Below are positions 35,793 through 59,894 of a stretch of DNA of 64,000 nt, piece after piece. Source of the DNA: Lentzea waywayandensis (GTDB lineage Bacteria > Actinomycetota > Actinomycetes > Mycobacteriales > Pseudonocardiaceae); NCBI RefSeq assembly GCF_900115955.1, contig NZ_FOYL01000002.1:1116001-1180000 (forward strand), written 5' to 3'. The notes under the pieces are model-generated. The model saw only the letters and a program-made list of their open reading frames with translations, ran no database searches and was not told the DNA's origin. A program made the translations under genes and the position numbers. Position 1 is the stretch's first letter. The number at the start of each line of letters is the position of its first letter.

Positions 35793-35810
35793 CTCTCTGA
35801 AGGCAGAGCC

Positions 35811-41063: not shown

Positions 41064-41105
41064 ACCTCCGGCGAGTGCCTCCGAGGGGGAAGCACTGACC
41101 GGTCG

Positions 41106-41151: not shown

Positions 41152-41153
41152 GC

Positions 41154-41855
41154 TCACCCGGCGAGGACCGCGGCCTCCCTGCGCCGCAACGCCGAACCGG
41201 GTTCCATGCCGAACTCCTCCACCAGCAGCGCCCGCACCCGCCGATAGGTCCGCAGCGCGTCACCGGCGCGGCCCGCCCGGTGCTGGGCCTCCATCAGCAG
41301 CTCCCACAGCGACTCCCGCAGCGGGTAGAGCGTGACCAGCCGTTGGAGCTGCGTGATCGCCTCGGCGTACCGGCCGTCCAGGCACAGCGCCGCCGCCTGG
41401 TTCTCCTCCGCGAACGCCACCGCCTCCCGCAGCCGCACGATCTCGGCGCCCGCCCAGCCCTCGACCGGGCAGTCCGCCAGCGGATCGCCGCGATGCAACG
41501 CCAGCGCCTCCGCATATCTGCCACAGCGCAGGTGTTCGTCGAACTCCTCGACGTCGACCACGACCTGCGTGACGTCGAGCAGGTAGCCGGGTTCGCGCGT
41601 CAGCACCACGCCGTCCGCGCCGGCCAGCTCCAGCGCTCTTCGGACCTTCGCGATGTGCCCCTGCAGCGTCTTGGTCCCCGTGGGTGGCACGTCCTCGCCC
41701 CACAGGCCGTCGACCAGCGCCGATCTCGACACCAACCGGCCGGTCCGCAACGCCAGCAACGCGAACACGGCCCGCCGCCGCGCCCCGGTGAAGTGCACCG
41801 GCCCGTTCGGTCCGCGCACCTCGAGCGGCCCGAGCAGCCGCACCTCGATCTTCAT
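41154..41855 (-). CDS. Short SARP-type regulator (wHTH plus BTAD)
   Basis: A 233-residue protein from ATG 41855 (MKIEVRLLGPLEV; GGGAGGGG about 8 nt upstream). The N-terminal OmpR-like winged helix (about 5-95) has RRRAVFALLALR and LQGHIAKVRRAL. The bacterial transcriptional activation domain (about 100-233) ends with RALLVEEFGMEPG. It has only the DNA-binding and BTAD parts, like ActII-ORF4 and RedD, which are pathway-specific activators. Nearest clusters are the catabolic operon and, 7 kb away, the thiopeptide genes; its target is not evident. Alternative start 41861. Confidence 0.9.
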   Translation of the reverse strand: MKIEVRLLGPLEVRGPNGPVHFTGARRRAVFALLALRTGRLVSRSALVDGLWGEDVPPTGTKTLQGHIAKVRRALELAGADGVVLTREPGYLLDVTQVVVDVEEFDEHLRCGRYAEALALHRGDPLADCPVEGWAGAEIVRLREAVAFAEENQAAALCLDGRYAEAITQLQRLVTLYPLRESLWELLMEAQHRAGRAGDALRTYRRVRALLVEEFGMEPGSALRRREAAVLAG

Positions 41856-41958
41856 CACCATTCCCCTCCCCTTGGACATAGGTAGAGGCGTGCCACGGGT
41901 GTGCCGCGTGGCGTCACATCACCGCGAGGTAACCGAGCGATAACAGGAAGATGTACCG

Positions 41959-41976
41959 ACCGACCACTCAGTCGGT
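41959..41976. promoter_or_regulatory. Candidate TetR operator upstream of GH3 gene
   Basis: ACCGACCACTCAGTCGGT has 6-bp arms ACCGAC/GTCGGT around a 6-bp centre and resembles the ACCGAC-type palindromes bound by many AcrR/TetR repressors. It lies 22-39 bp before the GH3 ATG (41998). The TetR gene at 44335 is co-transcribed with the GH3 gene, so self-repression is plausible. Confidence 0.6.
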
Positions 41977-41997
41977 CCTTCTGGTGTGCTCGGACGC

Positions 41998-44325: not shown

Positions 44326-44334
44326 GGTGACGCC

Positions 44335-44958
44335 GTGTCGGTCCCGCCCCGGTACCGGGCCAAGTCGCGGGTGGACGTCTCCGGTGAGGAGTCCCGGGCC
44401 AAAGCGGTGGCCGTCGCGACCGAACTGTTCGCGCTGACCGGTTTCAAGGGAACCTCGGTGGCGGCCGTGGCCGCCAGGACGGGGCTCTCGCAGTCCGGTC
44501 TGCTGCACCACTTCCCGAGCAAGGCGGCGTTGCTGACGGCCGTGCTGGAGGAACGCGACAGGCAGGACGGCGACTTCCTGGCCGGGAGCGCGGGTCCTCC
44601 GCTGGGCTGGGCGGCGTTCGACGCGCTGGCCGCACTGGTGGCGCGCAACTCGACGCGGCCGCACCTGGTCGGCCTGTTCGTGCGACTGGCCGCCGAGGCG
44701 ACCGAACCCGCCCACCCCGCGCACACGTGGGTGCGGGAGCACTACAGCGGATTGCAGCGATGGCTGGGCGATGCCGTGCGTTCAGGCCAGGAACGCGGCG
44801 AGATCGCGGCGGACGCCCCGGTCGGTTCGATCGTGCGCACGACGATCGCGGTGATCGACGGATTGCAGCAGCAGTGGCTGCTCCAACCGGACGAAGTGTC
44901 GATGACGGCCGAATTCGAGGCTTTCGCGGGAACTCTGCGCGCCCGCTGGGCTCGCTGA
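44335..44958 (+). CDS. TetR/AcrR-family repressor
   Basis: A 207-residue protein from GTG 44335 (GAGG upstream), 9 bp after the GH3 stop. The N-terminal HTH (about 20-66) has ATELFALTGFKGTSVAAVA and SGLLHHFPSKAALL; the C-terminal ligand domain (about 85-205) is all helical. Co-transcribed with the glucosidase and the likely binder of the ACCGAC palindrome at 41959-41976. A terminator follows directly. Confidence 0.92.
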   Translation: MSVPPRYRAKSRVDVSGEESRAKAVAVATELFALTGFKGTSVAAVAARTGLSQSGLLHHFPSKAALLTAVLEERDRQDGDFLAGSAGPPLGWAAFDALAALVARNSTRPHLVGLFVRLAAEATEPAHPAHTWVREHYSGLQRWLGDAVRSGQERGEIAADAPVGSIVRTTIAVIDGLQQQWLLQPDEVSMTAEFEAFAGTLRARWAR

Positions 44959-45201: not shown

Positions 45202-45267
45202 CGTTCAGGAAGTGCGCGAGGATGGCTGTGCACCCCAACGCCTGGATCATCGAGGAGCGATATACCC

Positions 45268-47952
45268 GTGGAGTTCCTGCTGCTCGGTTCGCTGGCGGTA
45301 CGGCGGACGGGCACACTGCTGGAGCTGGGCGGACCCCGGCAGCGCGCGGTGCTCACCATGCTGTTGCTGCACGCGAACGAGGCGGTCAGCGTCGCACAGC
45401 TGACAGACGCCGTCTGGGATTCGCCGCCGGTGTCACCCGAGTCGAACCTGCGCACGTACGTCGCCGGGTTGCGCAAGGTCCTCGGTGAACGACTGATAAC
45501 GCATCCGGGCCACGGCTACCAGCTCGTGGTCGAACCCGGCGAGCTGGACCTCGACGCGTTCGACCAGCTCGTGCGCGACGGCGAGAACGCCCTGGCGGAC
45601 ACCGACACGGAAGCGGCGGCGGACCTCTTCGGCCAGGCGCTGGGCCGGTGGCACGGCATCCCGACCGCCGAGCTCAACGCGGGACCGTTGCTGCGCGCCG
45701 AGTTCACCCGGATCCAGGAACGCCGCCTCACCGCCGTCGAGCGGTTCGCGAAGACCTCGCTGGAGCTCGGCCGGATCGACGACGTGATCGACCGGCTGCG
45801 GCGGGAGACCGCGCTGCACCCGTTGCGCGAGGAGCTCTGGGTCCAGCTGATGCTGGCGCTGGACCGCTCGGGCCGTCGCAGCGAGGCGCTCGAAGCCTTT
45901 GCGACGGCCCGCAAGCACATGGTCGAGCAGGTCGGCGTCGAGCCGGGCGCGCGATTGCGCCAGTTGCAGCAGGTGATCCTCGAAAGCCGGGTGCCCTCGC
46001 CCGCGGCTTTGAACGCGCATCGCCAGCTGCCGATGGACATCGCCGAGTTCACCGGCCGGGAGTCCGAGCTGCGGCGGCTGTGCGAACCGGGGCCGCAGAC
46101 CACCGTCGTGATCTCCGCGATCGAGGGCATGGCCGGGGTCGGCAAGACGAAGCTGGCCGTCCGTGCGGCGCACCAGCTCGTTCAGCGTTATCCGGATGTG
46201 CAACTGTGGGCCGACTTGCACGGCTTCGACGCCGACGAGCTGCCCGCGGACCCGTCCGCCGTGCTGGAGAGCTTCCTGCGGCTGCTCGGCGTACCCGGCG
46301 GGCAGATCCCGGCGTCGCTGGAGGAACGGGCCGCGCTCTACCGCGACCGGCTGACGGGCAAGCGCGCGTTGGTGCTGCTCGACAACGCCGCCGGCGAGGA
46401 CCAGGTGCGGCCGTTGCTGCCGGGCAGCTCCACCTGCATGGTGCTGATCACCAGCCGCCGCACGCTCCTGCGGCTGGACGGCGTGAGGTCACTCTTCCTC
46501 GACGTCTTCACCTCCGGTGAGGCGCTCGCGCTGCTCTCCAGGATCGCCGGCGAGGACCGCGTGCAGGCCGATCTCGAGGCAGCGGAACAGATCGCGGAGC
46601 TGTGCGGGCACCTGCCGATCGCCGTCGCGCTGGCCGCCAAACGGCTCGCCCGTCGTCCACAGTGGACGATGCGCGACCTGGTGGACCGGCTCGAGCGGGG
46701 AGGGGGTCTCGGTGTCCGGGGCGTGTTCGACCTCTCGTACCAGGCGCTGCCGGACAACCAGAGGCGCCTGTTTCGACTCCTCGGACTCCATCCGGGGGAG
46801 GACTTCTCCGCCGACTCGGCCGCCGCACTCGCCGGGCTGACCCCGCACGAGGCGGGCGACCTGCTGGAGACGTTGCTCGACGAACACCTGTTGCAGCAAC
46901 ACACCCCCGGCCGCTACAGCCTGCACGACCTGCTGCGCACGTACGCCGTCGAGCAGGTCACCGCCGCCGAACCGCCGCCCGTTCGCACGTTGGCGCGGCG
47001 CCGCGTGCTCGACTGGTACGTGCACACGTCGTGGCAGAGCGCGCAGCAGCTCAACCCGCAGCGCAAGCTGGAGATCAGCCCCGCGGACCCGGTCGTGCAC
47101 GCACGTTCGTTCGCCGACCGCGACGCCGCTCTGCTGTGGTGCGACACCGAACGCGCGAACCTCGTCGCGGCGGTGCGCGACGCCGCCGGGCACGAGCTGC
47201 CGGAGCACTCCTGGAGCCTCGCTCAATGCCTGTGGGACTTCTTCAACCTGCGCAAGCACTGGGCGGACTGGATCGACACGCACGGCGTCGCGCTGGCCGC
47301 CGCACGATCGGTCGGTGACCGCAGCGCCGAGGGCAGGATGCTGATCACGCTGGGCATCGCGCTGCGCGAGGTCCGGCGGCACGACGAGTCCATCGAGTGC
47401 AACCAGCAGGCGCTCGCGATCTTCCGCGCGACCGGCGACAGGTCCCGTCAGGAACCGACGCTCAACAACCTCGGCATCGTCTACATGGTGCTGGGCCGGG
47501 CCGAGGACGCGCTGGCGTGCTACGAGCAGTCCGCCGAGATCGCCCGCGAACTGGGCAACCGGCACTCGGAAGCCGTGACGCTGAACAACATCGCGCTGCT
47601 GCACGCCGACGCGGGCCGGTTCGACGTCGCGCTGGCGCGGTACCTGCGGGCGTTGGAGATCCGCCAGGACATCAAGGACCCGTACAGCGAGGCGATCCTG
47701 CTCAACAACATCGGCGAGGTGTACCGGGGCCTGCTCGACTTCCCCGAGGCCGTGTCGTACGTCGACCGGGCGCTGGAGACGTTCCGGGCGATCGGCGACC
47801 TCTACGGGCAGGCCGAGTCGCTGGACAACCTCGGGCTGGCGCTGGACGGGCTCGGCGACCGCCGGGGCGCGGAGAAGTGCTGGCTGGAGTCCGTGACGTT
47901 GTTCGAGGAACTGGGCGAACCCAAGGCCGACGAGGTGCGCGGCCGCCTGTAG
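45268..47952 (+). CDS. AfsR-type SARP regulator with NB-ARC and TPR domains
   Basis: An 894-residue protein from GTG 45268 (GAGGAG 10 nt upstream; longer frames start inside the structured leader). Order: winged helix (1-90; GPRQRAVLTMLLLHAN and LRTYVAGLRKVLGER), BTAD (95-245; EQVGVEPGARLRQLQ), NB-ARC/STAND ATPase (about 265-560; P-loop GMAGVGKTKLAV ~288, Walker B ALVLLDNA, LCGHLPIAVALA), and C-terminal TPRs (about 680-890; repeated LNNLGIVY/LNNIALLH/LNNIGEVY motifs). Resembles AfsR. It sits just upstream of the thiopeptide genes in the same direction, 110 bp before the precursor, and is the prime candidate for their activator. Confidence 0.93.
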   Translation: MEFLLLGSLAVRRTGTLLELGGPRQRAVLTMLLLHANEAVSVAQLTDAVWDSPPVSPESNLRTYVAGLRKVLGERLITHPGHGYQLVVEPGELDLDAFDQLVRDGENALADTDTEAAADLFGQALGRWHGIPTAELNAGPLLRAEFTRIQERRLTAVERFAKTSLELGRIDDVIDRLRRETALHPLREELWVQLMLALDRSGRRSEALEAFATARKHMVEQVGVEPGARLRQLQQVILESRVPSPAALNAHRQLPMDIAEFTGRESELRRLCEPGPQTTVVISAIEGMAGVGKTKLAVRAAHQLVQRYPDVQLWADLHGFDADELPADPSAVLESFLRLLGVPGGQIPASLEERAALYRDRLTGKRALVLLDNAAGEDQVRPLLPGSSTCMVLITSRRTLLRLDGVRSLFLDVFTSGEALALLSRIAGEDRVQADLEAAEQIAELCGHLPIAVALAAKRLARRPQWTMRDLVDRLERGGGLGVRGVFDLSYQALPDNQRRLFRLLGLHPGEDFSADSAAALAGLTPHEAGDLLETLLDEHLLQQHTPGRYSLHDLLRTYAVEQVTAAEPPPVRTLARRRVLDWYVHTSWQSAQQLNPQRKLEISPADPVVHARSFADRDAALLWCDTERANLVAAVRDAAGHELPEHSWSLAQCLWDFFNLRKHWADWIDTHGVALAAARSVGDRSAEGRMLITLGIALREVRRHDESIECNQQALAIFRATGDRSRQEPTLNNLGIVYMVLGRAEDALACYEQSAEIARELGNRHSEAVTLNNIALLHADAGRFDVALARYLRALEIRQDIKDPYSEAILLNNIGEVYRGLLDFPEAVSYVDRALETFRAIGDLYGQAESLDNLGLALDGLGDRRGAEKCWLESVTLFEELGEPKADEVRGRL

Positions 47953-48062: not shown

Positions 48063-48236
48063 ATGAAGGATCTCTCTTTCGACCCTGACGACCTGGAGCT
48101 CGGCGACCTCGCGGTCACCTCCCTGCGCGACTCGGTCGCGCTGCCGGAGTCCGGCGCTTCCGGAGGCGCCTCGTCGTGCTCGTGCGGCAGCTCGTCGTGC
48201 AGCAGCTGCACCCAGCCTCCCGTCCAGAACGCATGA
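48063..48236 (+). CDS. lazA: Lactazole-type thiopeptide precursor peptide
   Basis: A 57-residue precursor. The acidic leader contains LELGDLAVTSLRDSVALPES (11-30), which closely resembles the lactazole leader as I recall it (LDLSELTVTSLRDTVALPEN). After ESGA comes a Ser/Cys-rich core (residues 33-57): SGGASSCSCGSSSC then SSCTQPPVQNA, with five Cys and many Ser. The C-terminal TQPPVQNA tail parallels the AQPQDM tail of LazA. Cys residues would become thiazolines/thiazoles and Ser residues dehydroalanines; two dehydroalanines condense into the central pyridine. The stop overlaps the ATG of the dehydratase gene (ATGA). Identity as a thiopeptide precursor is supported by all five following genes. 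Confidence 0.95.
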   Translation: MKDLSFDPDDLELGDLAVTSLRDSVALPESGASGGASSCSCGSSSCSSCTQPPVQNA

Positions 48237-50650
48237 GCGATCGCGTGCAGGGAGAAACAGCGCCATACGCACTCGTGCGCCTGGCGGCCCTGCCGCACCC
48301 GGACGGCGCTGCGACGGCAGCGCCGTTCCGGCGGGCGGTGGAGACGTTGGCGGCGCTCGAAGCCTCGCTGCTGTCACTGGCCGGCCCGGTGTCGGACCTG
48401 CTGCACGACAGCGCAGGCACGCACTCCGACACCTACCACCGCACGGTCGTGCTGCCGTTGCGCCGCGACGTCCACAACGGACGGTTGCCCCGGCCTTCCC
48501 TTCGCGCGGAGGTTGACGGGCTGGTGTCGCGGTTTCCGCAGCTCGGCGAATGGCTGTCGGCCATGGATCAACGCGCTGACGTGACCGCGGAGATCGAGCG
48601 ACTTCTCCCGGACGCGCTCGCCGCCGAACGCGAGGTGCTCGCGTCGTTGTGCGGCAACGAGTCCGTGCGGAAGGCCGCCGTCTTCAGCGGCCGCGACCTC
48701 TGGCAGGGCCTCGCCCGCGCCGGCGCCGGCGACAAGCGTTCCCGCAAGGCGGAACCCACCGTGCTGCGCTACGCCCTGCGCGCGACGTCGAAGACCAGTC
48801 CCCTGTCCTGGTACGCGGCGGTCGGCTGGGCCACCTGGTCCCCCGACGCCCCCGCGCCGGACTTCGGCACACCGGTCGCCGTCACGCGGGTCAACCAGGT
48901 GCTGCTGACCCGGCTGATCACCGCTCTCCTCGCCGATCGCAGTCATCTCTTCGACCACCCCCACCGCCTCGCGCCCGACGTGCACGCCGACGGCGGCCAG
49001 GTGAAGTTCCGTCGTGACATTCCCGCCCGCGGACCGTTGCGCGCCAACGTCGGCATCGAGGAGGACGTCGAACTGGCGTCCAGCCCGCCGCTGCAGTTCC
49101 TGGTCGGCCTCACCGGCGCCAACCCCAAGGGCATCAGCCCCGCCGAGCTCGCCAGCGCCCTCGCGACCCGCCTGCCCGACGGCGAGTCCGGCCGGGCGCA
49201 GCACTACGTCGCGTTGCTGCTCGACATCAAGCTCCTCGTGCCGGTGCTGCCCGCCGACCCGCAGGACCCCGAGGCCTGTCCCGCGCTGGCCTCGTGGCTG
49301 CGCGACACCGGCAGGTCCGAGCTCGCCGACCGGGTGATCTCGATCTACCGGGACACCCTGGCGTTCGCCGAGATCGACGCAGCCGCAAGGCCCGCCGCGC
49401 TCGCCGCCCTGTTCACGTCGTGGGAGGAGCTGGGCTCGATCGTCGGCACGGAGCTCGGTGACGTGACGCCGTTGAGCGAGGACGTCGTGCTGCCGTTGCC
49501 CGTTCGGCTCGGCCGTGCGCACGGATACGACGGCGTGCGGTCGCTGGCCGGCCTGACTCCGTTGCTGATGCTGTTCGACCGGCACCTCGCGATCCGGCGG
49601 CACTCACGCGACCTGTTCGTCACGGAGTTCGGTCACGGCGGCTCCGCCCGCCTCGCCGCCTGCGCGCCGCTGATCCACGAGGCCATGTCCGGCGCGCCGA
49701 CCGGCGGTCTCGGGGCGAGCCGGGCCCAGGTGGCCGATCTGGTGCGGGACGGCGTGATCACCGACGAGGTCGTCACGGCCGCCGCGGACCTGCTGCCCGC
49801 GTGGATGAAGACCAGGCCGACCTCGTACTCGTTCTTCGCCCAGCCGTCACCGGACGGCCTGGTGGTGAACCACATCTACGACGGCTTCGGCCGTTTCCCC
49901 GGCCGGTTCCTCGATCTGCTGCCACCCGAGGCGTACGCGACCGTCCGGGCCACTTTGGACGGTGTGTTCCCGCGCGGTTTCGTGGAGTACCGCCCGGTAC
50001 AGGGCTTCAACCCGAACCTGCACCCTCTGCTCGGACGCGCGGAGATCGGCGAGGACCCGCGCTGGGCCGACTACACCCCGGACGCGCTGGAAGTCTTCCA
50101 CGACCAGCAGAACGACGAACTGCGACTGCGCCGCCGCGACAACGGCGCGGTGCTGGACGTGCTCTACCTCGGCTACCTCATGCCGATCTCGCTACCCGAC
50201 CGCGTCGCCGCCCTGTACTCCGACCTCACCTGCGGCGCGGCCGACCTCTCCCCGTTGCAGCCGGTCTCGGTGGCCGGTGATGTCCGCGTCGCCGATCGGC
50301 TGCGCTACCGCGACGTCGTGCTCGGCCGCCGCTACTGGGACTTCCCGGCTTCTTCCTTGACGGAGGCGTTCTCGTCGGTGGCCGGCGCGACGTCTCTGCG
50401 CGCCCGGTACGGCATGCCCGCGGAGCTGTTCGCGGGCATGGGTGGCGTCATCACGTCCCGCGAGGACTTCGAGGCCCGCGTGAACGGCCCGAAACCGCAG
50501 TACGCCGACCTCACCAACGCACTGCACCTGCGCTGCCTGCCGCGCCTGACGTCCCGCTACGGCGACCACGTCCGACTGACCGAGGCACTTCCCGTGCCCT
50601 CCGGCCAGGTGCTCGAAGTGGTGGCGGAGACCTACCGGAGGGCCGGATGA
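48233..50650 (+). CDS. lazB: tRNA-Glu-dependent LanB-type dehydratase (glutamylation enzyme)
   Basis: An 805-residue protein of the lantibiotic-dehydratase N-terminal class, starting at the ATG that overlaps the precursor stop (ATGA); a longer frame at 48176 runs through the precursor gene and was rejected. Typical blocks are GRDLWQGLARAG with KAEPTVLRYALRATSKTSP (about 165-195), a central RRHSRDLFVTEFG (~455), and NPNLHPLLGRAEIG (~595). It should transfer Glu from glutamyl-tRNA to core Ser side chains. The separate elimination domain is in LazF, as in lactazole biosynthesis. About 805 residues fits the family. Confidence 0.92.
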   Translation: MSDRVQGETAPYALVRLAALPHPDGAATAAPFRRAVETLAALEASLLSLAGPVSDLLHDSAGTHSDTYHRTVVLPLRRDVHNGRLPRPSLRAEVDGLVSRFPQLGEWLSAMDQRADVTAEIERLLPDALAAEREVLASLCGNESVRKAAVFSGRDLWQGLARAGAGDKRSRKAEPTVLRYALRATSKTSPLSWYAAVGWATWSPDAPAPDFGTPVAVTRVNQVLLTRLITALLADRSHLFDHPHRLAPDVHADGGQVKFRRDIPARGPLRANVGIEEDVELASSPPLQFLVGLTGANPKGISPAELASALATRLPDGESGRAQHYVALLLDIKLLVPVLPADPQDPEACPALASWLRDTGRSELADRVISIYRDTLAFAEIDAAARPAALAALFTSWEELGSIVGTELGDVTPLSEDVVLPLPVRLGRAHGYDGVRSLAGLTPLLMLFDRHLAIRRHSRDLFVTEFGHGGSARLAACAPLIHEAMSGAPTGGLGASRAQVADLVRDGVITDEVVTAAADLLPAWMKTRPTSYSFFAQPSPDGLVVNHIYDGFGRFPGRFLDLLPPEAYATVRATLDGVFPRGFVEYRPVQGFNPNLHPLLGRAEIGEDPRWADYTPDALEVFHDQQNDELRLRRRDNGAVLDVLYLGYLMPISLPDRVAALYSDLTCGAADLSPLQPVSVAGDVRVADRLRYRDVVLGRRYWDFPASSLTEAFSSVAGATSLRARYGMPAELFAGMGGVITSREDFEARVNGPKPQYADLTNALHLRCLPRLTSRYGDHVRLTEALPVPSGQVLEVVAETYRRAG

Positions 50651-51726
50651 CCGACGTCGTCTGCTACTACCACGACCCGATCAAGGCACCGCTGCTGCGC
50701 GACGGCGTCCTACCGGCCCTCGCCGCCGCCGAATCCACTTTCGCCGACGTCGTGGGCCACGTCGAACGCCACTGGCTGCACGGCCCGCACGTCCGCGTCG
50801 TGCTGACCGGCCCGTCCGCCCCGACCGCGGCGTTGCTGGTGGCGACCCTGCTCCGCTCCTACCTGGCTTCGAGCCCGTCCACAGTGGAGCTTTCGGAGTC
50901 CGAGCTGCTCGCGCACGCCGAGTCCGCGGCCGTGGCCGAGCTGCTCCTGCCGCCGTTCACTCCGTTCCACCCCAACAACTCCGTGCGCATCGAGCCGACC
51001 GACGACTCTCGCGCCCGCGACTTCCTCCCTCCAGCACACGTCGCTCTGCGCGCGGAAGGCCTCCGCCTGGGCCTGCCCGCCCTGCGCCACTCGCTGTCCG
51101 TGCCACGCCCGACACTCGCCCTGACCGCGATGGCCGTCCACGCCAGCCGCTACCCGGCCGGCCTGCAGTACGGCTACCACTCGTTCCTCTCGCACGTAGA
51201 GGACTTCCTGCTGGCCAGCGACCCCGACGGCGTCATCCGGTCCAAACTGGACTCGATCTGGACCGCAAACGCTTCCGCCGCCTGTGCCCTGGTCGAACAG
51301 GTAGCCCTGGGTCACCCCACCACACACCTGGAAGCAGCCTGGCAGACCTGGACCATCGCCCTGCGCCTGACCGCCCAGGAAAGCTACGACGCGGGGCAGC
51401 TCACCTCCGACCCCAACCCACGCCACGGCGAACGCGCCCACGAGGTAGGCGACCAGGACGCCATCCGCCGCTACAACTACGGCGAGCGCACCAAGTTCAC
51501 CGACTACCACACCGCCATGTGGACCGTGGACCTCTCCGACCCGGCGATCGCACGCTCGATGACCGTCTACCGCCTGGGCACCAACGTCCTCTACCAACTG
51601 CTGGCGATCTGCGACGTCACCCCGATGGAGCGCTACGCCGCCGCCCACCTCCTGGCCAACGCCGCGCAGAAGGTCCTCGGCACCACCTGGGCCGAGCAGT
51701 TCGCCGCCCTCCCGAAGGTGGGGTGA
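50647..51726 (+). CDS. lazC: Pyridine synthase (formal [4+2] cycloaddition enzyme)
   Basis: A 359-residue protein of the LazC/TclM group, distantly related to the LanB elimination domain. It begins VVCYYHDPIKAPLLRDGVLP; HWLHGPHVRVVLTG resembles the leader-binding/elimination fold, and AGLQYGYHSFLSHVEDFL contains residues conserved in pyridine synthases. It would join two dehydroalanines to form the six-membered ring, expel the leader peptide and close the macrocycle. ATGA overlap with lazB; GTGA overlap with lazD. No other enzyme in the window could do this step. Confidence 0.9.
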   Translation: MTDVVCYYHDPIKAPLLRDGVLPALAAAESTFADVVGHVERHWLHGPHVRVVLTGPSAPTAALLVATLLRSYLASSPSTVELSESELLAHAESAAVAELLLPPFTPFHPNNSVRIEPTDDSRARDFLPPAHVALRAEGLRLGLPALRHSLSVPRPTLALTAMAVHASRYPAGLQYGYHSFLSHVEDFLLASDPDGVIRSKLDSIWTANASAACALVEQVALGHPTTHLEAAWQTWTIALRLTAQESYDAGQLTSDPNPRHGERAHEVGDQDAIRRYNYGERTKFTDYHTAMWTVDLSDPAIARSMTVYRLGTNVLYQLLAICDVTPMERYAAAHLLANAAQKVLGTTWAEQFAALPKVG

Positions 51727-53450
51727 CGCGCGTGCTCGTACGGCTGCGCCCAGTCGTCACCGCCACCCAGACCGCCGACGGCCTGCACCTGCGCGGCTGG
51801 GCGTCCAGCTGCACCCTGTCCGGCGGAACCGGCCTGTGGAAGGTGTGGCAACGCCTGGCCCCACAGTTGGAAGCCGGGATCCCACGGTCCGCGCTGGAGG
51901 TGCCGTCCGATGCCGCTCCGGCCGTGCGGGCGGCGGTCTCGTTGATCCTGGAGCAGTTGTGGGAGCACGACATGCTGGTCGAGATGCCGGCGTGGGGAGC
52001 CGACGCGCCCGCGCCGAACGTGGCGGCCTGGCTGGAGTCCGCGGCCGCGGCACCGGTGGAGGCTTGGCAGCGGCTTCGCGCGGCCACGGTCGTCGTGTCG
52101 GGGCCTGGGCCGTTGGAGAGCGCGGCCGTTCGGGCGGCGGAGGCGGTGGGGCTGACGGTTCGGTGGTCAGGGACAGCCGCGCAGGCGGCGGAAGCCGGGC
52201 AAACGGCGGAAGCCGCGCAGACGACGGAAGCCGGGCACACGACCACGCTCGCGCCAATCACCCCGCACGCGAACAAAAGCGAGCCGGCCGCCGGACTCCT
52301 CCACGGAAGCGACGCGCCCATCCCACCCGCCGGCAGGGAACTCGTCGTCTCCGCGGGCACCCTCGCCGTCCTGGCGGGTTGCGGAACCGAAGTCGGCTAC
52401 GTCCTCCCGCCCACCACTGGAAGCCTCTCTTCACTCAACACTGAAGTAACTATGCGCACCGCAGCAAGACTGGGCATCACCGGCGAACCATCCGAGATCC
52501 TGGCCACCCTCATCGGATCCGCCGCCATCCACCGCCTCGCCTGTGCCATCGCCGGCCTGCCCGACCCGGCCGCGGAACTCGCCACCACCGGCCCAGCCAC
52601 CACGCCCGCGACCACCACCGGCCCGGCCACCACCGGCCCGGCCACCACGCCCGCGACCACCGAGCCCACACCCACCTATCCGATGGCCCTGGTCGCCCAC
52701 GCGACCCCGCTCCGCGCCACCTACCACCCGCTCCTACAAGGCCCGCCGACAGCGGACCCGTGGCGAGCCCTCGAAGCCCTCACGGACAACGAACTCGGCC
52801 CGGTCGACACCCCGGCGTTCGGCCCCCTCGCCCAGGTCCCGGCCAACCTCGCCACCTCAGGCGACGCCCTCGGCATCGGCACCACAGCCGACGCCGCCCG
52901 CCTCAACGCGGCCCTCAACGCCCTCAAGACCGACGGCGTGATCGGCATCGACGAGACCCACGCCCGCGGCGCGGCACTGCGCCAGGCCGCGCGCCACCAC
53001 CGCGGCGAGCCGGCTGACGCACACGAGTGGACCGGCGACCCGACCGCGCACCGGTGGTGGAAGGCGTTGACCGCGAGGTTCGGTGTCCCGGCGGTCGTCC
53101 GGGTCGAGCGGCTCGCATCTGGCGTGCACAAGGCGGAGATCAGCAACGGCAGGCAGATCCTCGCGTGGGCCGTTGAGGCAACGGCCGCGGACGCGGTGGC
53201 GTTCGCGGCCCTCGCCGCCACCGGCTACGCGCAGGCAGGTCGCACCGGCACCGCACACCTCAACGGCGCGACCCCGTGCAGGGCCACCGACAACCCCGAC
53301 TGGGTCACCAGGCAATGGCATTGGCCCGCCGACGTGCGAGACCGCGAAGAACGGCTCCAGCAGGCGATCGCGAGGCTGCCGGGAGTCCGGGTCGTGCCGC
53401 TCCGGCTCGACCCGGAACTCCGCTCCGCCGGTCTGAAGGCGTACCGATGA
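51723..53450 (+). CDS. lazD: Ocin-ThiF-like/RRE partner of the YcaO cyclodehydratase
   Basis: A 575-residue protein from GTG 51723. The N-terminal ~100 residues (LVRLRPVVTATQTADGLHLRGW and VRAAVSLILEQLWEHDML) fit the peptide-recognition winged helix of F/ThiF-like RiPP proteins; the rest is a degenerate ThiF-like scaffold (VVVSGPGPLESAAVRAAEAVGL near 122) with no adenylation motif. Two low-complexity inserts interrupt it: an Ala/Glu/Thr segment (about 155-178) and an Ala-Thr-Pro segment (about 288-315), both from DNA tandem repeats. It should deliver the leader to LazE. ATGA overlap with lazE. Confidence 0.88.
   Translation: MTRVLVRLRPVVTATQTADGLHLRGWASSCTLSGGTGLWKVWQRLAPQLEAGIPRSALEVPSDAAPAVRAAVSLILEQLWEHDMLVEMPAWGADAPAPNVAAWLESAAAAPVEAWQRLRAATVVVSGPGPLESAAVRAAEAVGLTVRWSGTAAQAAEAGQTAEAAQTTEAGHTTTLAPITPHANKSEPAAGLLHGSDAPIPPAGRELVVSAGTLAVLAGCGTEVGYVLPPTTGSLSSLNTEVTMRTAARLGITGEPSEILATLIGSAAIHRLACAIAGLPDPAAELATTGPATTPATTTGPATTGPATTPATTEPTPTYPMALVAHATPLRATYHPLLQGPPTADPWRALEALTDNELGPVDTPAFGPLAQVPANLATSGDALGIGTTADAARLNAALNALKTDGVIGIDETHARGAALRQAARHHRGEPADAHEWTGDPTAHRWWKALTARFGVPAVVRVERLASGVHKAEISNGRQILAWAVEATAADAVAFAALAATGYAQAGRTGTAHLNGATPCRATDNPDWVTRQWHWPADVRDREERLQQAIARLPGVRVVPLRLDPELRSAGLKAYR
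52186..52243 (+). repeat. 18-bp tandem repeat in lazD
   Basis: About three imperfect copies of a unit like GCGGAAGCCGGGCAAACG encode the AEAGQT-type repeats. Lies in a linker of the protein, so copy changes would be tolerated. Confidence 0.55.
52581..52668 (+). repeat. Ala-Thr-Pro coding tandem repeats in lazD
   Basis: Interleaved repeats of GCCACCACCGGCCCG and GCCACCACGCCCGCGACC encode ATTGPATTPATT. Likely an unstructured linker. Confidence 0.6.
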
Positions 53451-54973
53451 TCCGCGTGGACGGCGGCCTGACCCTCATCGGCCCGACCACGAACGTCTGC
53501 GTCGACTGCGCCGAGAACGCACGGCTGGCGACCGCCCGGGCTCCACGCCAGAACCTGCGTCTGAAAGGCCTGATCGCACCGGCGTTCCAGCCTCTGGTCG
53601 CAGCACTCCAGGGCCAGGAGCGCGACACCGTGATCGCGATCCGCACCGACCTCGGGCTGGTGTCCACCCACCGGATCACGCCCGGAAACTGCTGTTCCCC
53701 GGAACCCGTGTCCCACAAGGACACCTCGACCCCCGCCGGCGAGCTCCGCACCCCGAACGACAAGACCACAGTGGACGGACTGAAGGACGCGGTGGTCGAC
53801 TTCCGGCACGGACCGGTCACCGCCCTGTTCCGCACCGGAAACCTGCCCCTCGCCACCGTCACCGCCGAACTCGACTCCCACACCGCCGGCTACGGCCGCA
53901 CCACGTCGTTCGAGGAGGCGGAACGGGTAGCGATCTTCGAGGCGATCGAACGCCTCAACGGCATGCGCCCCCGCGTCCCGAGCACCCTCGAAGCCTCGTT
54001 CGCCGAGCTGGGACCGGACCAGGCGCTCGACCCGGAACGCCTGGGCCTCAACGACTTCGGCAACACCTACCACCCAGACCTCCGAATTCGCTGGACCCCA
54101 GGATGGTCGTACACCCGGCGCAAGCCGATCCAGGTGCCGGAGCAGGTCGCGTACTGGGGCGCGCACACACCGCCAGAGCAACGGTTCCTCCACGAGACGT
54201 CCAACGGCTGCGGGCTCGGCAACAGCCTGACCGAGGCAGTGCTGCACGGCCTGTTCGAGGTGGCCGAACGCGACGCGTTCCTGATGGCCTGGTACGCCCA
54301 AACTCCTCTGAGAAAGATCAAGCTCCCGAACGAACCGCTGCTGCACCACCTCACCGACCGGCTGGCGGAACTCGGCTACGAGCTCCTGTTCCTCGACGCC
54401 ACCAACGACCTGGGCATCCCGGCCGTGCTGAGCCTGGCCAGAGCCAGAAGAAGCGACCTGCCCCAGGCGTTCTTCGCCGCCGGAGCCAGCCCGGACCCCA
54501 CCAAAGCCATGCGGTCGGCGGCGGTAGAGGTGGCCGTGGACGTCGAGGCGTTCGCCGACCGCGCACGCGAGAACCCCGAGAACTACCAAAGAGAACGCCT
54601 GCTCAGCCTCCTCCACGACCCGACGCAGGTCAGAAGCATGGACGACCACGTCGCGGTCAACACGCTGCCAGAGGCCAAAACCCGATACGCGTCCCTCGTA
54701 AGCGACGAACCCCCGCAAGCCCTGAACAACCAGCCACGCCACACAGATCTCAAAGAACTGCTCGACCACTACACGGAAGACCTGAAGGCCAAAGGCCTGG
54801 AGCTGATCGCGGTCGACCAGTCCGACCCGCACACCGCGAACACCCTCGGGCTGCACTCCGCCAAGGTCATCGTGCCGGGAACGCTGCCCATGACGTTCGG
54901 CCACCTGCACCGCCGGACACGTGGTCTTCCCCGGCTGGACCTCCAGGCCGGACATCCCCACCCGTTCCCCTGA
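53447..54973 (+). CDS. lazE: YcaO azoline cyclodehydratase
   Basis: A 508-residue YcaO protein. N-terminal VDCAENARLATARAPRQNL precedes the YcaO domain (about 125-508). ATP/Mg-binding segments are SFEEAERVAIFEAIERLNG (~155) and NSLTEAVLHGLFEVAERDAF (~264). The chain ends in HPHPFP, the proline-rich C-terminus conserved in azoline-forming YcaO enzymes. It phosphorylates peptide amides so that core Cys (and some Ser) cyclise to azolines, guided by LazD. ATG 53447 overlaps the lazD stop; an upstream in-frame start at 53276 lies inside lazD. Confidence 0.93.
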   Translation: MIRVDGGLTLIGPTTNVCVDCAENARLATARAPRQNLRLKGLIAPAFQPLVAALQGQERDTVIAIRTDLGLVSTHRITPGNCCSPEPVSHKDTSTPAGELRTPNDKTTVDGLKDAVVDFRHGPVTALFRTGNLPLATVTAELDSHTAGYGRTTSFEEAERVAIFEAIERLNGMRPRVPSTLEASFAELGPDQALDPERLGLNDFGNTYHPDLRIRWTPGWSYTRRKPIQVPEQVAYWGAHTPPEQRFLHETSNGCGLGNSLTEAVLHGLFEVAERDAFLMAWYAQTPLRKIKLPNEPLLHHLTDRLAELGYELLFLDATNDLGIPAVLSLARARRSDLPQAFFAAGASPDPTKAMRSAAVEVAVDVEAFADRARENPENYQRERLLSLLHDPTQVRSMDDHVAVNTLPEAKTRYASLVSDEPPQALNNQPRHTDLKELLDHYTEDLKAKGLELIAVDQSDPHTANTLGLHSAKVIVPGTLPMTFGHLHRRTRGLPRLDLQAGHPHPFP

Positions 54974-54991
54974 ACCACCGTTGGAGCAGCT

Positions 54992-56491
54992 GTGACCTGG
55001 ACCGGCCTGCACTGCAGGGTCAACTGGAACCGAGCGGACCTCGACACGTTCGTCGCCGAGACGCTGGCCCCCGCGATGGCCGGCCAGGAGTGGTACTTCC
55101 TGCGCTACTGGGAGACCGGGCCGCATCTCCGCGTCAGGATCAAGAACGCGCAGAACGTCGACAAACTCCAGCGGCAACTGGAGGAACTCATCGCGGCCCA
55201 GGACTTCCAGCAAGAACAAGGCGAACCGGACTGGCTCCCTCACGGCGACGTCCGCGAGGTCGAGTACGTCCCGGAGACCGAACGGTACGGCGGCCCGGAC
55301 GCGCTGCCGATCGCCGAGGAAGTGTTCTGCCACAGCACCGAGGTCGCCGTCGCGGTGCTCAAGGCGACCCACACCGACAGCGCTCGTCTCACCGCCGCCA
55401 TCGACCTGACGATCGCGACGGCGAAGGCGCTCGACCTGAACCTGCCGCAGGCCGCGAGCTGGCTGCGCAGCCTGGGCTCCGGCTGGCGCAACGTCCAGGA
55501 GCGGGCCCCCGCACCCACCATCGGATCCCAGCACGCCGCCAACCAGTTGCTCGCCAAACGCGGCCGCGACCTCGCCGCTCGGTGGCACCGCGAACCACGA
55601 GGTGCCATCGCGCATTGGCGCACCACGATCAACGAAGCCAAGCAGCGCCTCGACGTCTGGCTGCCGTACGTCTGGGCCTCGCAGCTGCACATGCTGCTCA
55701 ACCGCATGGGCATCACACCCAACGAAGAGCGCATGATCTGCTGGACGACCGCGGCCGCCGCCATGTCCCCCAACGGTTTGACGGACTTCCACGACGACGG
55801 CGAGACCGCGCCGGACCGCCGTTACCTGGAGGCGAGCAAGTTCCTGCCGGGCTTCAACGACCAACTGCCCCGCAAGTCGGCGGCACCAAGGCAGTCCTGG
55901 CCCGCCACCACCTCATTGCCATCCACAGTGGACACCGACACGCTCAGAGCCCGCAGGACGAGCCGCGACCTCACCGGCGAGCTCGACGCCGGGCAGCTCG
56001 GCACCCTGCTGTGGAACGCGATGTCCCCGAAGGACGGCAGGTGGCCGTACCCGAGCGCGGGCGCCCAGTACTGCGCCCGGATCAGGCTCATCGCCCTGAA
56101 CGTCGACGGCCTGGCCCGCGGACGGTATGAGGTCAACGAGGTCGAGCGAGCTCTCACCTGGTTCGGCGAGGCGCCGTCGATCGAGGACCTGGAAGCGACC
56201 TCGATGTGGTTCGGCCAGGGCACCACCGAACTCGGCGGAACCCCGGCCGTCCTGGCTCTTTACATCAGGCTGGGCGCACTGCGGCAGACGTACGGGTTGA
56301 GGGCGCTGCGGTTCGCGTTCACCGAAGCCGGTCACCTGGCCCAGAACCTGACGGTGACGGCCGCGAACCACGGCATCAAGACAGGACTCGTGGGCGGGTT
56401 CTACGACGACATCGCCCACGACGTCATCGGGCTCGACGGCGTGAACGACGCACTCGTCTACTTCCTGCCGCTGGCCTCAGAGCTCGACTGA
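54992..56491 (+). CDS. lazF: Bifunctional glutamate-elimination / azoline dehydrogenase
   Basis: A 499-residue fusion from GTG 54992 (GGAG upstream). The N-terminal half (about 1-285) is a SpaB_C/thiopeptide elimination domain: EWYFLRYWETGPHLRVRIK, then LHMLLNRMGITPNEE. The C-terminal half (about 305-499) is an FMN SagB-type dehydrogenase: RRTSRDLTGELDAGQLGTLL, WPYPSAGAQY, and FTEAGHLAQNLTVTAANHGI. The same fusion defines LazF. It removes Glu from glutamyl-Ser to give dehydroalanine and oxidises azolines to azoles. Its 3' end overlaps the convergent acyl-CoA-dehydrogenase-like gene by 15 bp. Last gene of the cluster; no exporter or immunity gene follows. Confidence 0.93.
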   Translation: MTWTGLHCRVNWNRADLDTFVAETLAPAMAGQEWYFLRYWETGPHLRVRIKNAQNVDKLQRQLEELIAAQDFQQEQGEPDWLPHGDVREVEYVPETERYGGPDALPIAEEVFCHSTEVAVAVLKATHTDSARLTAAIDLTIATAKALDLNLPQAASWLRSLGSGWRNVQERAPAPTIGSQHAANQLLAKRGRDLAARWHREPRGAIAHWRTTINEAKQRLDVWLPYVWASQLHMLLNRMGITPNEERMICWTTAAAAMSPNGLTDFHDDGETAPDRRYLEASKFLPGFNDQLPRKSAAPRQSWPATTSLPSTVDTDTLRARRTSRDLTGELDAGQLGTLLWNAMSPKDGRWPYPSAGAQYCARIRLIALNVDGLARGRYEVNEVERALTWFGEAPSIEDLEATSMWFGQGTTELGGTPAVLALYIRLGALRQTYGLRALRFAFTEAGHLAQNLTVTAANHGIKTGLVGGFYDDIAHDVIGLDGVNDALVYFLPLASELD

Positions 56492-57463
56492 GTCCAGCAT
56501 GACGTCGACCGTCGGCTCGATCGCGGCCGCCGCCCGCGCGTCCCGGAACCGGCGCTCGATGCCCAGGTCCCGGCGGAAGGCCGCGTCCCCGCACACCTTC
56601 ATCGCCAGGTCCGTCACCGCGACGGCGGCCTCGGTCGCGGTGACCGCCAGCAGCCGGACGCGGTCGGCCGATCGTTCCGGATGCCACGTCACGGCGGACA
56701 GCGTGTCGTTGTACAGCACCCTGAGCGCGTCGGTCCGCAACCGCATCCGGGCCAGATCGGACCGTGTGCGCGGATCGCCGCCGCCCAGATGCCCGATCGC
56801 CGCCGCCAGCGCGCCCTCCATCAGCCCCAGCGACACCGCGGCCCCGAGCACCATGAACCACGGGAACGCGAGTTCCTCCGACCACAGCAGATTGGAAGCG
56901 GGTACCCGTACGGGATCCGCCTCCACGCAGGTGGCGACGGTGCCCCGCAGGCCCATCCCGGCATGATCGGCCGGGACCAGCAGGCCCGGTGCCTCGGCGG
57001 GAACGAGCACCAACTCCGAGCCGCACGACCAGACGTAGCTGTCCGCCTCGCCGGCCGCGATCACCCAGGTCTTGCGCGCCCGCACCTGAACCACGTCACC
57101 GTGCGTCGACATCTCGCCCGGCGGACCGAAAGCCGCCAGCGTCGACAGGTGCCGGCCCGCCGCGATCTCGGCACGCAACCAGTGCGGGCCGGAGCGGTCC
57201 AGCACGGCGGCGGCGGAGTAGTGCGAGCGCAGCACGGAAGCCGTTGCGCCGCAAACCTTCGCGACCTCTTCGACCACGCGTCCTGCCGATCGGACGTCCT
57301 GGCCTCCTCCGCCGACCGTGCGGGAGATCGTCATTCCCAGCAGGCCGCGCGCGCCCAGGGCGTTCAGGGCTGCGCGCGGGAATCTGGAGTGCTGGTCGAT
57401 GTCGGCGGCGTTCGGCGCCACCACGGTCTGCACGATGCGGAGCAGGTCCGCCCGGTACGTCAC
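56477..57463 (-). CDS. Acyl-CoA dehydrogenase-like flavoprotein
   Basis: A 328-residue protein from GTG 57463, overlapping the previous stop (GTGA). N-terminal helices have ALGARGLLGMTISRTVGGGG and VEEVAKVCGATASVLRSHYS, then a beta domain with ARKTWVIAAGEADSYVWSC and a C-terminal helical bundle (AVTDLAMKVCGDAAFRRDLG, then RRFRDARAAA). This is the order of acyl-CoA dehydrogenase/HpaB-like flavoenzymes, but somewhat short, and I cannot locate a clear catalytic Glu. Substrate unknown. Last gene of the formate dehydrogenase operon and convergent with lazF. Confidence 0.83.
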   Translation of the reverse strand: MTYRADLLRIVQTVVAPNAADIDQHSRFPRAALNALGARGLLGMTISRTVGGGGQDVRSAGRVVEEVAKVCGATASVLRSHYSAAAVLDRSGPHWLRAEIAAGRHLSTLAAFGPPGEMSTHGDVVQVRARKTWVIAAGEADSYVWSCGSELVLVPAEAPGLLVPADHAGMGLRGTVATCVEADPVRVPASNLLWSEELAFPWFMVLGAAVSLGLMEGALAAAIGHLGGGDPRTRSDLARMRLRTDALRVLYNDTLSAVTWHPERSADRVRLLAVTATEAAVAVTDLAMKVCGDAAFRRDLGIERRFRDARAAAAIEPTVDVMLDSVEL

Positions 57464-59001
57464 GTGGGTGGGTAGAGCGAGTAGGAGGGGAAGTTGCCGT
57501 ACGGGCGTTCGTCGGGCGGCCCCTCCGTCACGGCGTGCACGAGTAACGAGCCACCGACGAACGCGCCGCGCCACGAAGCGCCTCGGCCGCCGAACACCTC
57601 GTCCCGGTCACCCCGCGACCGCGGCTTGTTGATGCCGACCTTGAACGCCTGGACGTCCTCGCTCAGCCGACGAGCCGTGGCCTCGTCGTCGCAGGCCAGA
57701 GAGGCGACCAGGGCGCCGTTCGAGGCGTTCATCGCGGCCAGCAGCTCGGCCTCGGTGTCCACCAGGACGATCGTGTCGACCGGCCCGAACGGCTCCGCGT
57801 GGTGCAGCACCGACGAGCGCGGCGGGTCGAGGATCGCGACCGGTGCCAGGTAGGCGGCGGTCTGCTGGCCCGGCAGGAACCGGCCGGAGTCCGGCGATCC
57901 CCGGTACAGCGGCACGCCACCGGCCCGGACCGCCTCGTCCACGACGTCGCCGAGCTCCTTGGCCTTCGCGTCGTTGATCAACGGACCGAAGTCCAGTTCA
58001 GGCAGCTCGTCGCCGGGCGAGGCGACGGCGAGCGGGTGGCCGAACTTCACGTCCCGCACCGCGGGCAGGTAGACGCTCAGGAACTTGTCGAACAGCGACC
58101 GCTGCACGACGTAGCGCGGGTAGGCGGTGCAGCGCTGCTTGCCGTAGTCGAAGGCCTTGCGGATCTGCGCGCCGAGCATGTCCCAGGAGTCGGTCTCCCA
58201 GACGCCCCAGCAGTTCAGGCCCTCCTGCTCCAGGACGTGCCGCCGGTTCGAGTCGACCAGGCGCGTCGCAATGGCACCACCGACGTCGCGACCGCCCACA
58301 AAGGACACACAGCCCAGGAACGACGACCCGACCAGCACCGGTGCGAGTTCCGCTCCGCTTCCCGACACCAGCGTCAACGGCAGCCCCGACCGCACGGCCA
58401 GCGCGGTCGCGAGCGTCAGGCAGCTCACGCCGCCGTCCGTCGGCGCCTTGGCGATGACGGCGTTTCCCGCCAGCGCCTGCACCAGCATCGCGTGCATCAG
58501 CACGCTCATCGGGTAGTTCCAGGAGGCGATGTTGCTGACCGGGCCGTTGAGCGGCGCCCGGCCGGCCAGCATCGAGTCGATCTCCTCGACGTACCAGCGC
58601 ACGCCCTCGATGCAGCGGTCGACGTCGGCCGTCGCGAGCCGCCACGGCTTGCCGATCTCCCACACCAGCAGCAACGACAACAGATCGCGGTGCTCGGTGA
58701 GCGCGTCCAAGGCCTCTGACACACGCGCCTTGCGTTCCGCCAGTGGCACGTTGCGCCACTCGATGTGCTGGTCGACGGCCGCGACCACGGCTCGTCCCGC
58801 GACGTCGAAGTCGAGGAACGGCGGGCCCGCGATGGTGGAGCCGTCGACCGGCGTGGTGGCGGGCATCGGTTCGCCGGAACGGCTCCACTCGCCGCCGAAG
58901 TGGTTGAGCAGCCGATCGTCGTGGAACGCTTCGGGTGCGGCCTTCACACACTGCGAGTAGACGTCGTTCCACGACGTGCCGGGCTTGAGGATCAACGGCA
59001 T
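57460..59001 (-). CDS. Aldehyde dehydrogenase-family protein
   Basis: A 513-residue ALDH-superfamily protein from ATG 59001 (GGAGGG 7 nt upstream). A ~60-residue N-terminal extension precedes the ALDH fold. The NAD-binding region includes NIASWNYPMSVLMHAMLVQA, AKAPTDGG and FVGGRDVGGAIATRL. The general-base position reads EQEGLNCW and the catalytic Cys probably lies in YGKQRCTAYPRYV. The GKQRC form is unusual against GQxC of typical ALDHs. By context it may supply or consume an aldehyde linked to formate; unproven. Followed by an overlapping acyl-CoA-dehydrogenase-like gene. Confidence 0.86.
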   Translation of the reverse strand: MPLILKPGTSWNDVYSQCVKAAPEAFHDDRLLNHFGGEWSRSGEPMPATTPVDGSTIAGPPFLDFDVAGRAVVAAVDQHIEWRNVPLAERKARVSEALDALTEHRDLLSLLLVWEIGKPWRLATADVDRCIEGVRWYVEEIDSMLAGRAPLNGPVSNIASWNYPMSVLMHAMLVQALAGNAVIAKAPTDGGVSCLTLATALAVRSGLPLTLVSGSGAELAPVLVGSSFLGCVSFVGGRDVGGAIATRLVDSNRRHVLEQEGLNCWGVWETDSWDMLGAQIRKAFDYGKQRCTAYPRYVVQRSLFDKFLSVYLPAVRDVKFGHPLAVASPGDELPELDFGPLINDAKAKELGDVVDEAVRAGGVPLYRGSPDSGRFLPGQQTAAYLAPVAILDPPRSSVLHHAEPFGPVDTIVLVDTEAELLAAMNASNGALVASLACDDEATARRLSEDVQAFKVGINKPRSRGDRDEVFGGRGASWRGAFVGGSLLVHAVTEGPPDERPYGNFPSYSLYPPT

Positions 59002-59036
59002 TGGGCGGCCCTCCACTCCGGAAGAGATGTCACTGC

Positions 59037-59894
59037 TCAGCGATTTTGCACGTGCTGCCAGCCGAAGCGGCCCTTGATGCACAGGTTTCCGTGCGTGACC
59101 GTGCTTTCGTGCGGCGACGTGACCTTCACGATCTCGTTGTCCTGCACGTGCAGGGTGAGGTTGCACCCGACACCGCAGAACGTGCAGATGGTCGTGGTCT
59201 GGGTCTGGGCCTCTTCGTCCCAGGTGCCGTCTTCGCGCTTGTCGTGCTCGCGCTTGAAGCTCAACGCACCGGTCGGGCAGACCTCGATGCAGTTTCCGCA
59301 GTAGACGCATGCGCTTTCGGGCAGTGGCACGGAGAACTCCGTGGAGATCCGCGAGTCGAAGCCGCGGCCGGCCACCGAGATCGCGAAGGTGTTCTGCCAC
59401 TGATCACCGCATGCGTCCACGCACTTGTAACACATGATGCACTTGCCCAGGTCGCGGACGTACAGCGGATTGTCCACTTTGATCGGTTGTGCCACGGTGG
59501 CGGCGTCCGGACCGAAGCGAGCGGGGTCGGCGCCGCACGCGGACATCCACTCGTCCACGTGCGGCGTGGTGGAGAGGTCCGTGGCGGACCCGAGAAGTTC
59601 CAGCACCAGCTTGCGGCTGTGTCGCGTGCGTTCGGAGTCCGTGCGCACGACCATGCCCGGCTCGACCTTGCGCGAGCACGACGGCACGAGCGTGCGAGCA
59701 CCCTCGACCTCGACCATGCAGACGCGGCAAGCGTTTGCGGGCTTCAGGGTGTCGCCGTAGCAGAGCGTCGGGATCGATTTCCCTTGCGCTGTACAGGCAT
59801 CCAGGATCGTCGCGCCCTCCGGCACCCGCACGGACTCGCCGTCCAAAGTCAGCTCGACCAGTCGCTTCGGAAGGCCGATCTCCACGATGGTCAT
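59037..59894 (-). CDS. Iron-sulfur subunit of formate dehydrogenase carrying the split-off Fe4S4 module
   Basis: A 285-residue ferredoxin-like protein with the N-terminal NuoG-type layout: [2Fe-2S] domain (about 10-80; PTLCYGDTLKPANACRVCMV), a His/Cys cluster region (~90-120), two [4Fe-4S] clusters (CIMCYKCVDAC ~151 and CVYCGNCIEVCPTG ~193), then at 235-285 a molybdopterin-oxidoreductase Fe4S4 domain (CTFCGVGCNL and GNLCIKGRFGW). That last domain normally begins the catalytic FdsA/FdhF chain directly ahead of the molybdopterin domain. The catalytic gene at 61661 lacks it. The start overlaps the previous stop (ATGA). Confidence 0.92.
   Translation of the reverse strand: MTIVEIGLPKRLVELTLDGESVRVPEGATILDACTAQGKSIPTLCYGDTLKPANACRVCMVEVEGARTLVPSCSRKVEPGMVVRTDSERTRHSRKLVLELLGSATDLSTTPHVDEWMSACGADPARFGPDAATVAQPIKVDNPLYVRDLGKCIMCYKCVDACGDQWQNTFAISVAGRGFDSRISTEFSVPLPESACVYCGNCIEVCPTGALSFKREHDKREDGTWDEEAQTQTTTICTFCGVGCNLTLHVQDNEIVKVTSPHESTVTHGNLCIKGRFGWQHVQNR

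Follow-up and report, generated by a model that had tools for sequence, protein, structure and literature searches.

A lactazole-type thiopeptide cluster at a fixed site in the genus Lentzea and its predicted 35-membered ring

Six consecutive genes of Lentzea waywayandensis very probably constitute a functional, largely vertically inherited cluster for a thiopeptide of the lactazole type. They lie within a stretch of 64,000 nucleotides that was analyzed as a whole and is called the window here. The genes, their conservation and the alignments described below were computed, while the enzyme roles are drawn from lactazole biochemistry and the modification pattern and ring size are deduced. The block comprises:

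48063..48236, + strand: lazA, precursor peptide of 57 residues, with a leader of residues 1-32 and a core of residues 33-57 (SGGASSCSCGSSSCSSCTQPPVQNA)
48233..50650, + strand: lazB, 805 residues, putative Glu-tRNA-dependent Ser/Thr glutamylation domain of a split LanB-type dehydratase (PF04738)
50647..51726, + strand: lazC, 359 residues, putative pyridine synthase for [4+2] cyclization and leader elimination, by homology to TbtD/PbtD
51723..53450, + strand: lazD, 575 residues, GTG start, putative leader-binding partner in a split cyclodehydratase, assigned from its place in the block and its homology to D genes in relatives
53447..54973, + strand: lazE, 508 residues, YcaO cyclodehydratase (PF02624, TIGR03604)
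54992..56491, + strand: lazF, 499 residues, putative glutamate-elimination domain fused to an FMN azoline dehydrogenase (PF14028 and PF00881)

The first-pass annotation of this DNA had described six open reading frames in this order, linked by ATGA or GTGA overlaps and with a short gap before lazF, and each element of that description holds at 48063-56491: ATGA overlaps join A/B, B/C and D/E, GTGA joins C/D, and 18 bp separate E from F. Its delineation of the core as residues 33-57 is likewise right. The further claim of a complete lactazole-type cluster is borne out by the gene set, the gene order, the leader, the fused LazF and a block free of transport genes, all of which match the lactazole cluster.

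Family searches support five of the six genes, LazD being the exception. The precursor scores 41.8 bits against PF19409 in Pfam (curated cut-off 23.5) and 37.7 bits against NF033400 in NCBIfam (cut-off 30); its 19.7 bits against TIGR03892 fall under the cut-off of 25. PF19409 finds this single match in the complete genome and none in 14 control genomes. The leader is acidic and ends in ALPE(x)GA, and the core starts with Ser1; that ending served as the search pattern in relatives, hence its recurrence there is not independent evidence. LazB matches PF04738 at 79.1 bits (cut-off 28) and nothing in NCBIfam, whereas LazF carries PF14028 at residues 13-253 and PF00881 at residues 318-493 in Pfam and scores over the cut-off of TIGR03891 and under that of TIGR03605. 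Between them, these domains make up a split LanB-type dehydratase with its elimination domain fused to an azoline dehydrogenase. LazE matches PF02624 at 269.6 bits and TIGR03604 at 247.4 (cut-off 219.25). LazC is homologous across most of its length to TbtD and PbtD, which we take to be the thiomuracin and GE2270 pyridine synthases, and these are its only matches in the PDB (TbtD 5wa3, E 5.2e-10; PbtD 5w98, E 4.6e-8). Against the corresponding model NF045556 it scores 139.7 bits (E 1.3e-40), far under the equivalog cut-off of 325, and so is not classed as an equivalog. By these searches, the genome holds one LazC and one thiopeptide precursor. PADLOC returned no matches with LazB, LazC, LazE or LazF, and viral contigs contained no LazC relative and thus no sign of a phage-borne copy.

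LazD itself matches nothing in Pfam, NCBIfam or the PDB, and its role is therefore assigned from its position and from homologs in relatives. By analogy it is the putative leader-binding partner of LazE in the split cyclodehydratase, an RRE role described for LazD of the lactazole system (PMC7210931). A resemblance to ribosomal protein S11 was discarded, the sequence matches being at chance level only. LazD also contains a Thr/Pro/Ala-rich, repeat-like low-complexity insert, and its 575 residues compare with 490-497 in four close Lentzea relatives.

Conservation in relatives indicates how the cluster has been maintained. Scanning genome contigs with a LazC profile (ten-row alignment) yielded 67 loci, in 62 of which the leader-end pattern located precursors (none by pattern in L060, L066, L082, L088 and L094). 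For the comparison of cores, 118 precursor-like frames were collected, two were dropped as not leader-like (L045, L051) and 116 were kept, 101 of them distinct, some loci having been fetched twice. The order A-F is kept in the eight further Lentzea loci whose cluster is complete; most of these share the border genes, and variation is seen in the LazD insert and at the extreme C-terminus of the precursor. Identity to six named Lentzea is 84-89% for LazC, and LazB is 86-91% identical in six close Lentzea loci. In Lentzea californiensis (L029) all 57 precursor residues are identical, lazA differing by seven synonymous and no nonsynonymous changes, and dN/dS for lazB-F against the same species ranges from 0.11 to 0.34. 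Judged from these sequences, purifying selection is acting on all six genes.

Among the nine intact Lentzea clusters, the precursor is near-constant through core residue 20. Five other Lentzea precursors diverge solely beyond that residue, by substitutions and small insertions, and those of L. fradiae and L. xinjiangensis have additional changes at core positions 3-4 and at a few leader positions, the latter also at 18. Across the nine lazA genes the same residue is coded at 28 of 32 leader codons and at 12 of the 14 codons for core residues 1-14, with many silent changes; the leader and the macrocycle are therefore held by purifying selection, in contrast to the far C-terminal tail, which drifts, as would fit its being trimmed. 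Together, the recurrence across Lentzea, the family scores and the silent-only changes in lazA argue that the reading frames are not products of chance.

Two genes border the block:

45265..47952, + strand: AfsR/SARP-like regulator with BTAD, NB-ARC and TPR domains, directly upstream, start codon uncertain
56477..57574, - strand: acyl-CoA dehydrogenase by Pfam, the conserved right-hand border, convergent with lazF

The block consists of the six genes only and holds no tailoring, export or resistance genes, as far as the partial scan of the flanks extends; the earlier statement that it lacks an exporter or immunity gene thus stands for the six genes. Upstream, ten selected frames at 29476-44955 were scanned, and no transporter gene was seen there other than an ABC set of the osmolyte type (ABC_tran, BPD_transp_1, OpuAC), which occupies 29476-32208 and is roughly 16 kb away from lazA. 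Downstream, the family scan covered the next two genes. Within 56477-63838 of the window, reverse-strand genes for the acyl-CoA dehydrogenase and an aldehyde dehydrogenase (Pfam) are followed by genes for formate/NADH dehydrogenase-like subunits named from their translations; of 22 other Lentzea regions, 18 have the iron-sulfur subunit gene next to the site.

The SARP gene was first favored as a cluster-specific regulator, lying as it does about 105-110 bp upstream of lazA in intact Lentzea loci. It is not cluster-specific, because 23 of 24 Lentzea genomes, counting that of the window, have an ortholog (at 82-92% identity in the remaining 22), and 13 of these genomes lack lazC; G413 is the one lazC-less genome of 14 without it. 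The regulator may influence lazA.

Its ubiquity makes the SARP gene a landmark for the site. While lazC occurs in 10 of the 24 Lentzea genomes, with lazA in the same 10, lazB occurs in 13. We surveyed the region downstream of the SARP gene in 13 of the 14 lazC-less genomes, and in seven of them the SARP and acyl-CoA dehydrogenase genes adjoin, separated by 11-514 bp that contain no laz match. Elsewhere remnants persist: lazB alone at the site in L097 and L108, lazB fragments in L102 and the final 28 lazB codons in L104. L106, covered over 5 kb, gave a partial dehydrogenase match (59% identical), and L107 gave none. One of the 10 genomes with lazC, L. atacamensis (L058), bears, at 10250-10660, a deletion through which the first part of lazC runs straight into the last part of lazF; lazA and lazB are kept. 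In a midpoint-rooted SARP tree, seven of the nine full clusters, including that of the window, form one supported group; the remaining two (L035, L038) are placed outside that group, with weak support, and L097 and L108 branch together. The most economical interpretation is of an old, site-fixed cluster lost on several occasions.

The solitary lazB genes of the sister genomes L108 (3301-5574) and L097 (3525-5720) are open frames of 757 and 731 codons, the latter without about residues 138-193. Both sites lack lazA and lazC-F, and no lazA or lazC was found elsewhere in either genome. Their dN/dS is 0.27 when compared with each other and 0.39 and 0.41 against the window, versus 0.15-0.34 for lazB where lazA is kept. 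This could reflect relaxed decay, or else a glutamylation domain that was orphaned and kept for another substrate.

How might the product be made? By analogy with lactazole, LazD and LazE, guided by the leader, would cyclize Cys residues and Ser12, which LazF, through its dehydrogenase half, would then oxidize to azoles. LazB would glutamylate Ser using Glu-tRNA, the elimination half of LazF would remove the glutamate to leave dehydroalanine (Dha), and LazC would join Dha1 and Dha13 as a pyridine, closing a 35-membered ring and releasing the leader as an amide. Because LazC would expel the leader in this way, no protease for leader removal would be needed. These roles (azoles, Dha, pyridine closure, leader amide) were demonstrated for lactazole, for whose production in vitro five enzymes with tRNA-Glu and GluRS suffice (PMC7210931, in part). 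For the Lentzea core, the sequence predicts thiazoles at Cys7, 9, 14 and 17, an oxazole at Ser12 and Dha at 8 and 11; modification of Ser5, 6, 15 and 16 and of Thr18 is uncertain. The masses calculated for such products are 3374.655 (monoisotopic) for the leader amide with Met retained and M 2083.645 for a macrocycle with five azoles and four Dha, counting the two that would form the pyridine, or values lower in steps of 18 or 20 Da; trimming after Pro20 would give M 1574.386. The L. atacamensis core has Gly at 12, where the oxazole Ser is expected. Trp2 and Ala14 are important for the lactazole enzymes (PMC7210931, in part), and the Lentzea core has Gly2 and Ser15 in their places, a departure that weighs against the preferred reading, though position 2 varies in relatives too.

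The size of the ring depends on which Ser completes the pyridine. In lactazole the pyridine arises from Ser1 and Ser12, the latter within the pyridine-forming SSSC motif Ser10-Ser11-Ser12-Cys13; S1A, S10A, S11A and S12A each abolish the product, Cys13 is needed for efficiency, and the ring has 32 members as against 35 in berninamycin (PMC7210931, in part). At three atoms per residue, Ser1-Ser12 gives 32 members and Ser1-Ser13 gives 3x12-1 = 35. The core SGGASSCSCGSSSCSSCTQPPVQNA has Ser-Cys at 6, 8, 13 and 16, and SSSC at 11-14 only. The macrocycle part, SxxxSSCSCGSSSC, is matched without change by 14 distinct Streptomycetaceae cores, which have SSCSCGSSSC at the same spacing from Ser1, and two others (L056/L067 and L063) depart from it at a single position; none of these 16 cores has a Cys beyond position 14. 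We place the pyridine at Ser13 because of this alignment to cores without a later Cys and because of the sole SSSC, and so predict a Ser1-Ser13 pyridine in a 35-membered ring, compared with 32 in lactazole, and an azole-rich tail. The lactazole numbering used here is that of a 16-residue core, which reproduces the published m/z of 701.20 (calculated 701.203) and whose positions match those discussed in PMC7210931; masses for Dha4 and Ser10 agree too, but follow from the first value and are not independent checks. A 19-residue core gave 888.27 against the published 701.20, an excess of three residues, and was rejected. If the same rule holds, the spacing from Ser1 to the last Ser-Cys in relatives would correspond to rings of about 20 to more than 40 members. 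Saccharothrix obliqua (L042) encodes five different precursors in tandem (stops at 6655-7428), and many Streptomyces loci have two.

Several other readings of the same data deserve weighing. LazC might use Ser16, in the stretch Cys14-Ser15-Ser16-Cys17, to give a 44-membered ring or a 35/44 mixture from one precursor. All nine intact Lentzea cores carry Ser16-Cys17 as a second candidate pair; followed by xQP, it resembles Ser12-Cys13-Ala-x-Pro of lactazole, Ser15 could be the preceding oxazole, and the Laz enzymes accept rings of up to 62 members in vitro (PMC7210931, in part). We nevertheless regard closure at Ser16 as unlikely, given that the gap-free alignment with Streptomyces second precursors and with the Kibdelosporangium and Actinocrispum cores (SSCSCGSSSCCCC) places residues 15-17 in the tail, that the motif tested in lactazole ends at residue 14, and that 44 members exceed the 26-35 of known thiopeptides (PMC7210931, in part).

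A slightly less probable alternative is that the cluster is decaying or silent, its frames open and its product not made. The cluster is dispensable, with 14 of 24 Lentzea genomes devoid of lazC and one more truncated, which counts against function, and both the repeated losses that left remnants (L058, L097, L108, L102, L104) and the longer LazD insert of the window can be enlisted for decay. Set against this are six intact frames and, in the comparison with L. californiensis, selection on lazB-F and the absence of any amino-acid change in the precursor. Least probable is a linear azole- and Dha-containing peptide or another non-macrocyclic product: goadsporin, a linear azole-containing peptide, is called a distant relative of the lactazole route (PMC7210931, in part), but the cluster includes a full-length pyridine synthase that is under selection (dN/dS 0.19 for lazC). 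The functional lactazole-type cluster remains our preferred reading.

Comparison beyond Lentzea draws attention to an additional gene after lazE in Saccharothrix, Kibdelosporangium, Actinocrispum, two Streptosporangiaceae and two Micromonosporaceae loci, for example:

L036:14113-15561 and L037:14472-15473: SagB/nitroreductase-like gene, after lazE

Of three copies scanned, one is over the Pfam nitroreductase cut-off and two match under it; hhalign matches a profile of the gene to LazF's dehydrogenase half (probability 89.6, E 1.9e-6). The Kibdelosporangium and Actinocrispum loci (L036, L037) have the closest LazC outside Lentzea (58% identity) and share the macrocycle motif, but their cores continue with CCC where Lentzea has SSC, giving a CCCC rather than a CSSC tail, and they carry the extra gene between lazE and lazF. 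Lentzea has neither the gene nor adjacent Cys in the core. Among 57 judged loci, adjacent Cys occur in at least one core in 17 of 17 loci with the gene and in 1 of 40 without it, the exception being the distant L091. The 57 come from 63 precursor loci (62 and the window), omitting L046, L048, L051, L058, L077 and L085, where the lazE-lazF region is not visible or the cluster is incomplete; L046, L048 and L051 combine Cys runs with no sign of the extra gene, and would oppose the correlation if the gene is truly absent. Among loci added afterwards, the gene was not seen in any of four with Streptomyces-type single-Cys cores (L111-L114). Among the four with TSGSSSCTSTSCC cores, a weak match lies between lazE and lazF in L117 and L118, L115 has a gap of the gene's size with no match, and L116 ends short of lazE.

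In a LazC tree (68 LazC, quick method), Lentzea falls within a group whose other judged members carry the extra gene, so that in Lentzea the loss of the gene and that of the Cys run seem to have gone hand in hand. With only two to three independent transitions, a sign test cannot reach significance. We offer as a tentative and still rather doubtful proposal that Lentzea is a natural knock-out, in which an ancestral extra enzyme for adjacent thiazoles was lost, CCCC became CSSC, and precursor and enzyme set shrank together; the gene would then encode an azoline oxidase dedicated to contiguous azoles, or a partner of the dehydrogenase in making them.

The nearest characterized system is lactazole A (laz of Streptomyces lactacystinaeus; AB820694, BGC0000606), which has five enzymes of the same functions, a fused LazF, the SSSC motif and no ancillary genes (PMC7210931, in part). 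The Lentzea core differs from it in having 25 residues, Gly2, a larger predicted ring and an SSC tail that adds one Cys after the pyridine-forming Ser-Cys. LazC is 37-41% identical to that of lactazole-type Streptomyces loci, among which laz itself was not found. The second lactazole-type precursor of Streptomyces (for example SNGGSSCSCGSSSCAHPQLPELPV, L095) is identical to that of Lentzea in core residues 5-14 and in Ser1-Ser13 spacing; its tail has no further Cys, and it mostly accompanies another precursor of the SWGSCSC type.

The first-pass annotation had called the precursor new, which is true only in part: the product is apparently uncharacterized, but the same 57 residues are found in L. 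californiensis and core residues 5-14 recur in many Streptomyces. No identical core already tied to a product turned up in open-access full text, a weak negative because lactazole's own core string was missed there as well. Titles and abstract beginnings on lactazole or Lentzea thiopeptides, macrocycle size and Saccharothrix dehydrogenases name neither the predicted product nor the extra gene. A Lentzea genome survey lists low-similarity (4-25%) lactazole clusters in a species group including L. pudingi (PMC9120177, in part), and some Lentzea strains carry thiopeptide clusters (PMC12300779, in part). Lactazole-like clusters reportedly account for roughly half of the thiopeptide clusters predicted (251 of 508), of which by 2020 laz alone was characterized, with the function of lactazole unknown (PMC7210931, in part). 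The Lentzea cluster is a new, apparently uncharacterized member of this very common family and not a new kind.

A cluster fixed at one site with a near-constant precursor, accompanied in the same genus by remnants and empty sites, provides related strains with and without it in which the compound's role may be probed. Likewise, the five Lentzea enzymes would offer a naturally distinct toolkit with which larger thiopeptide rings might be built.
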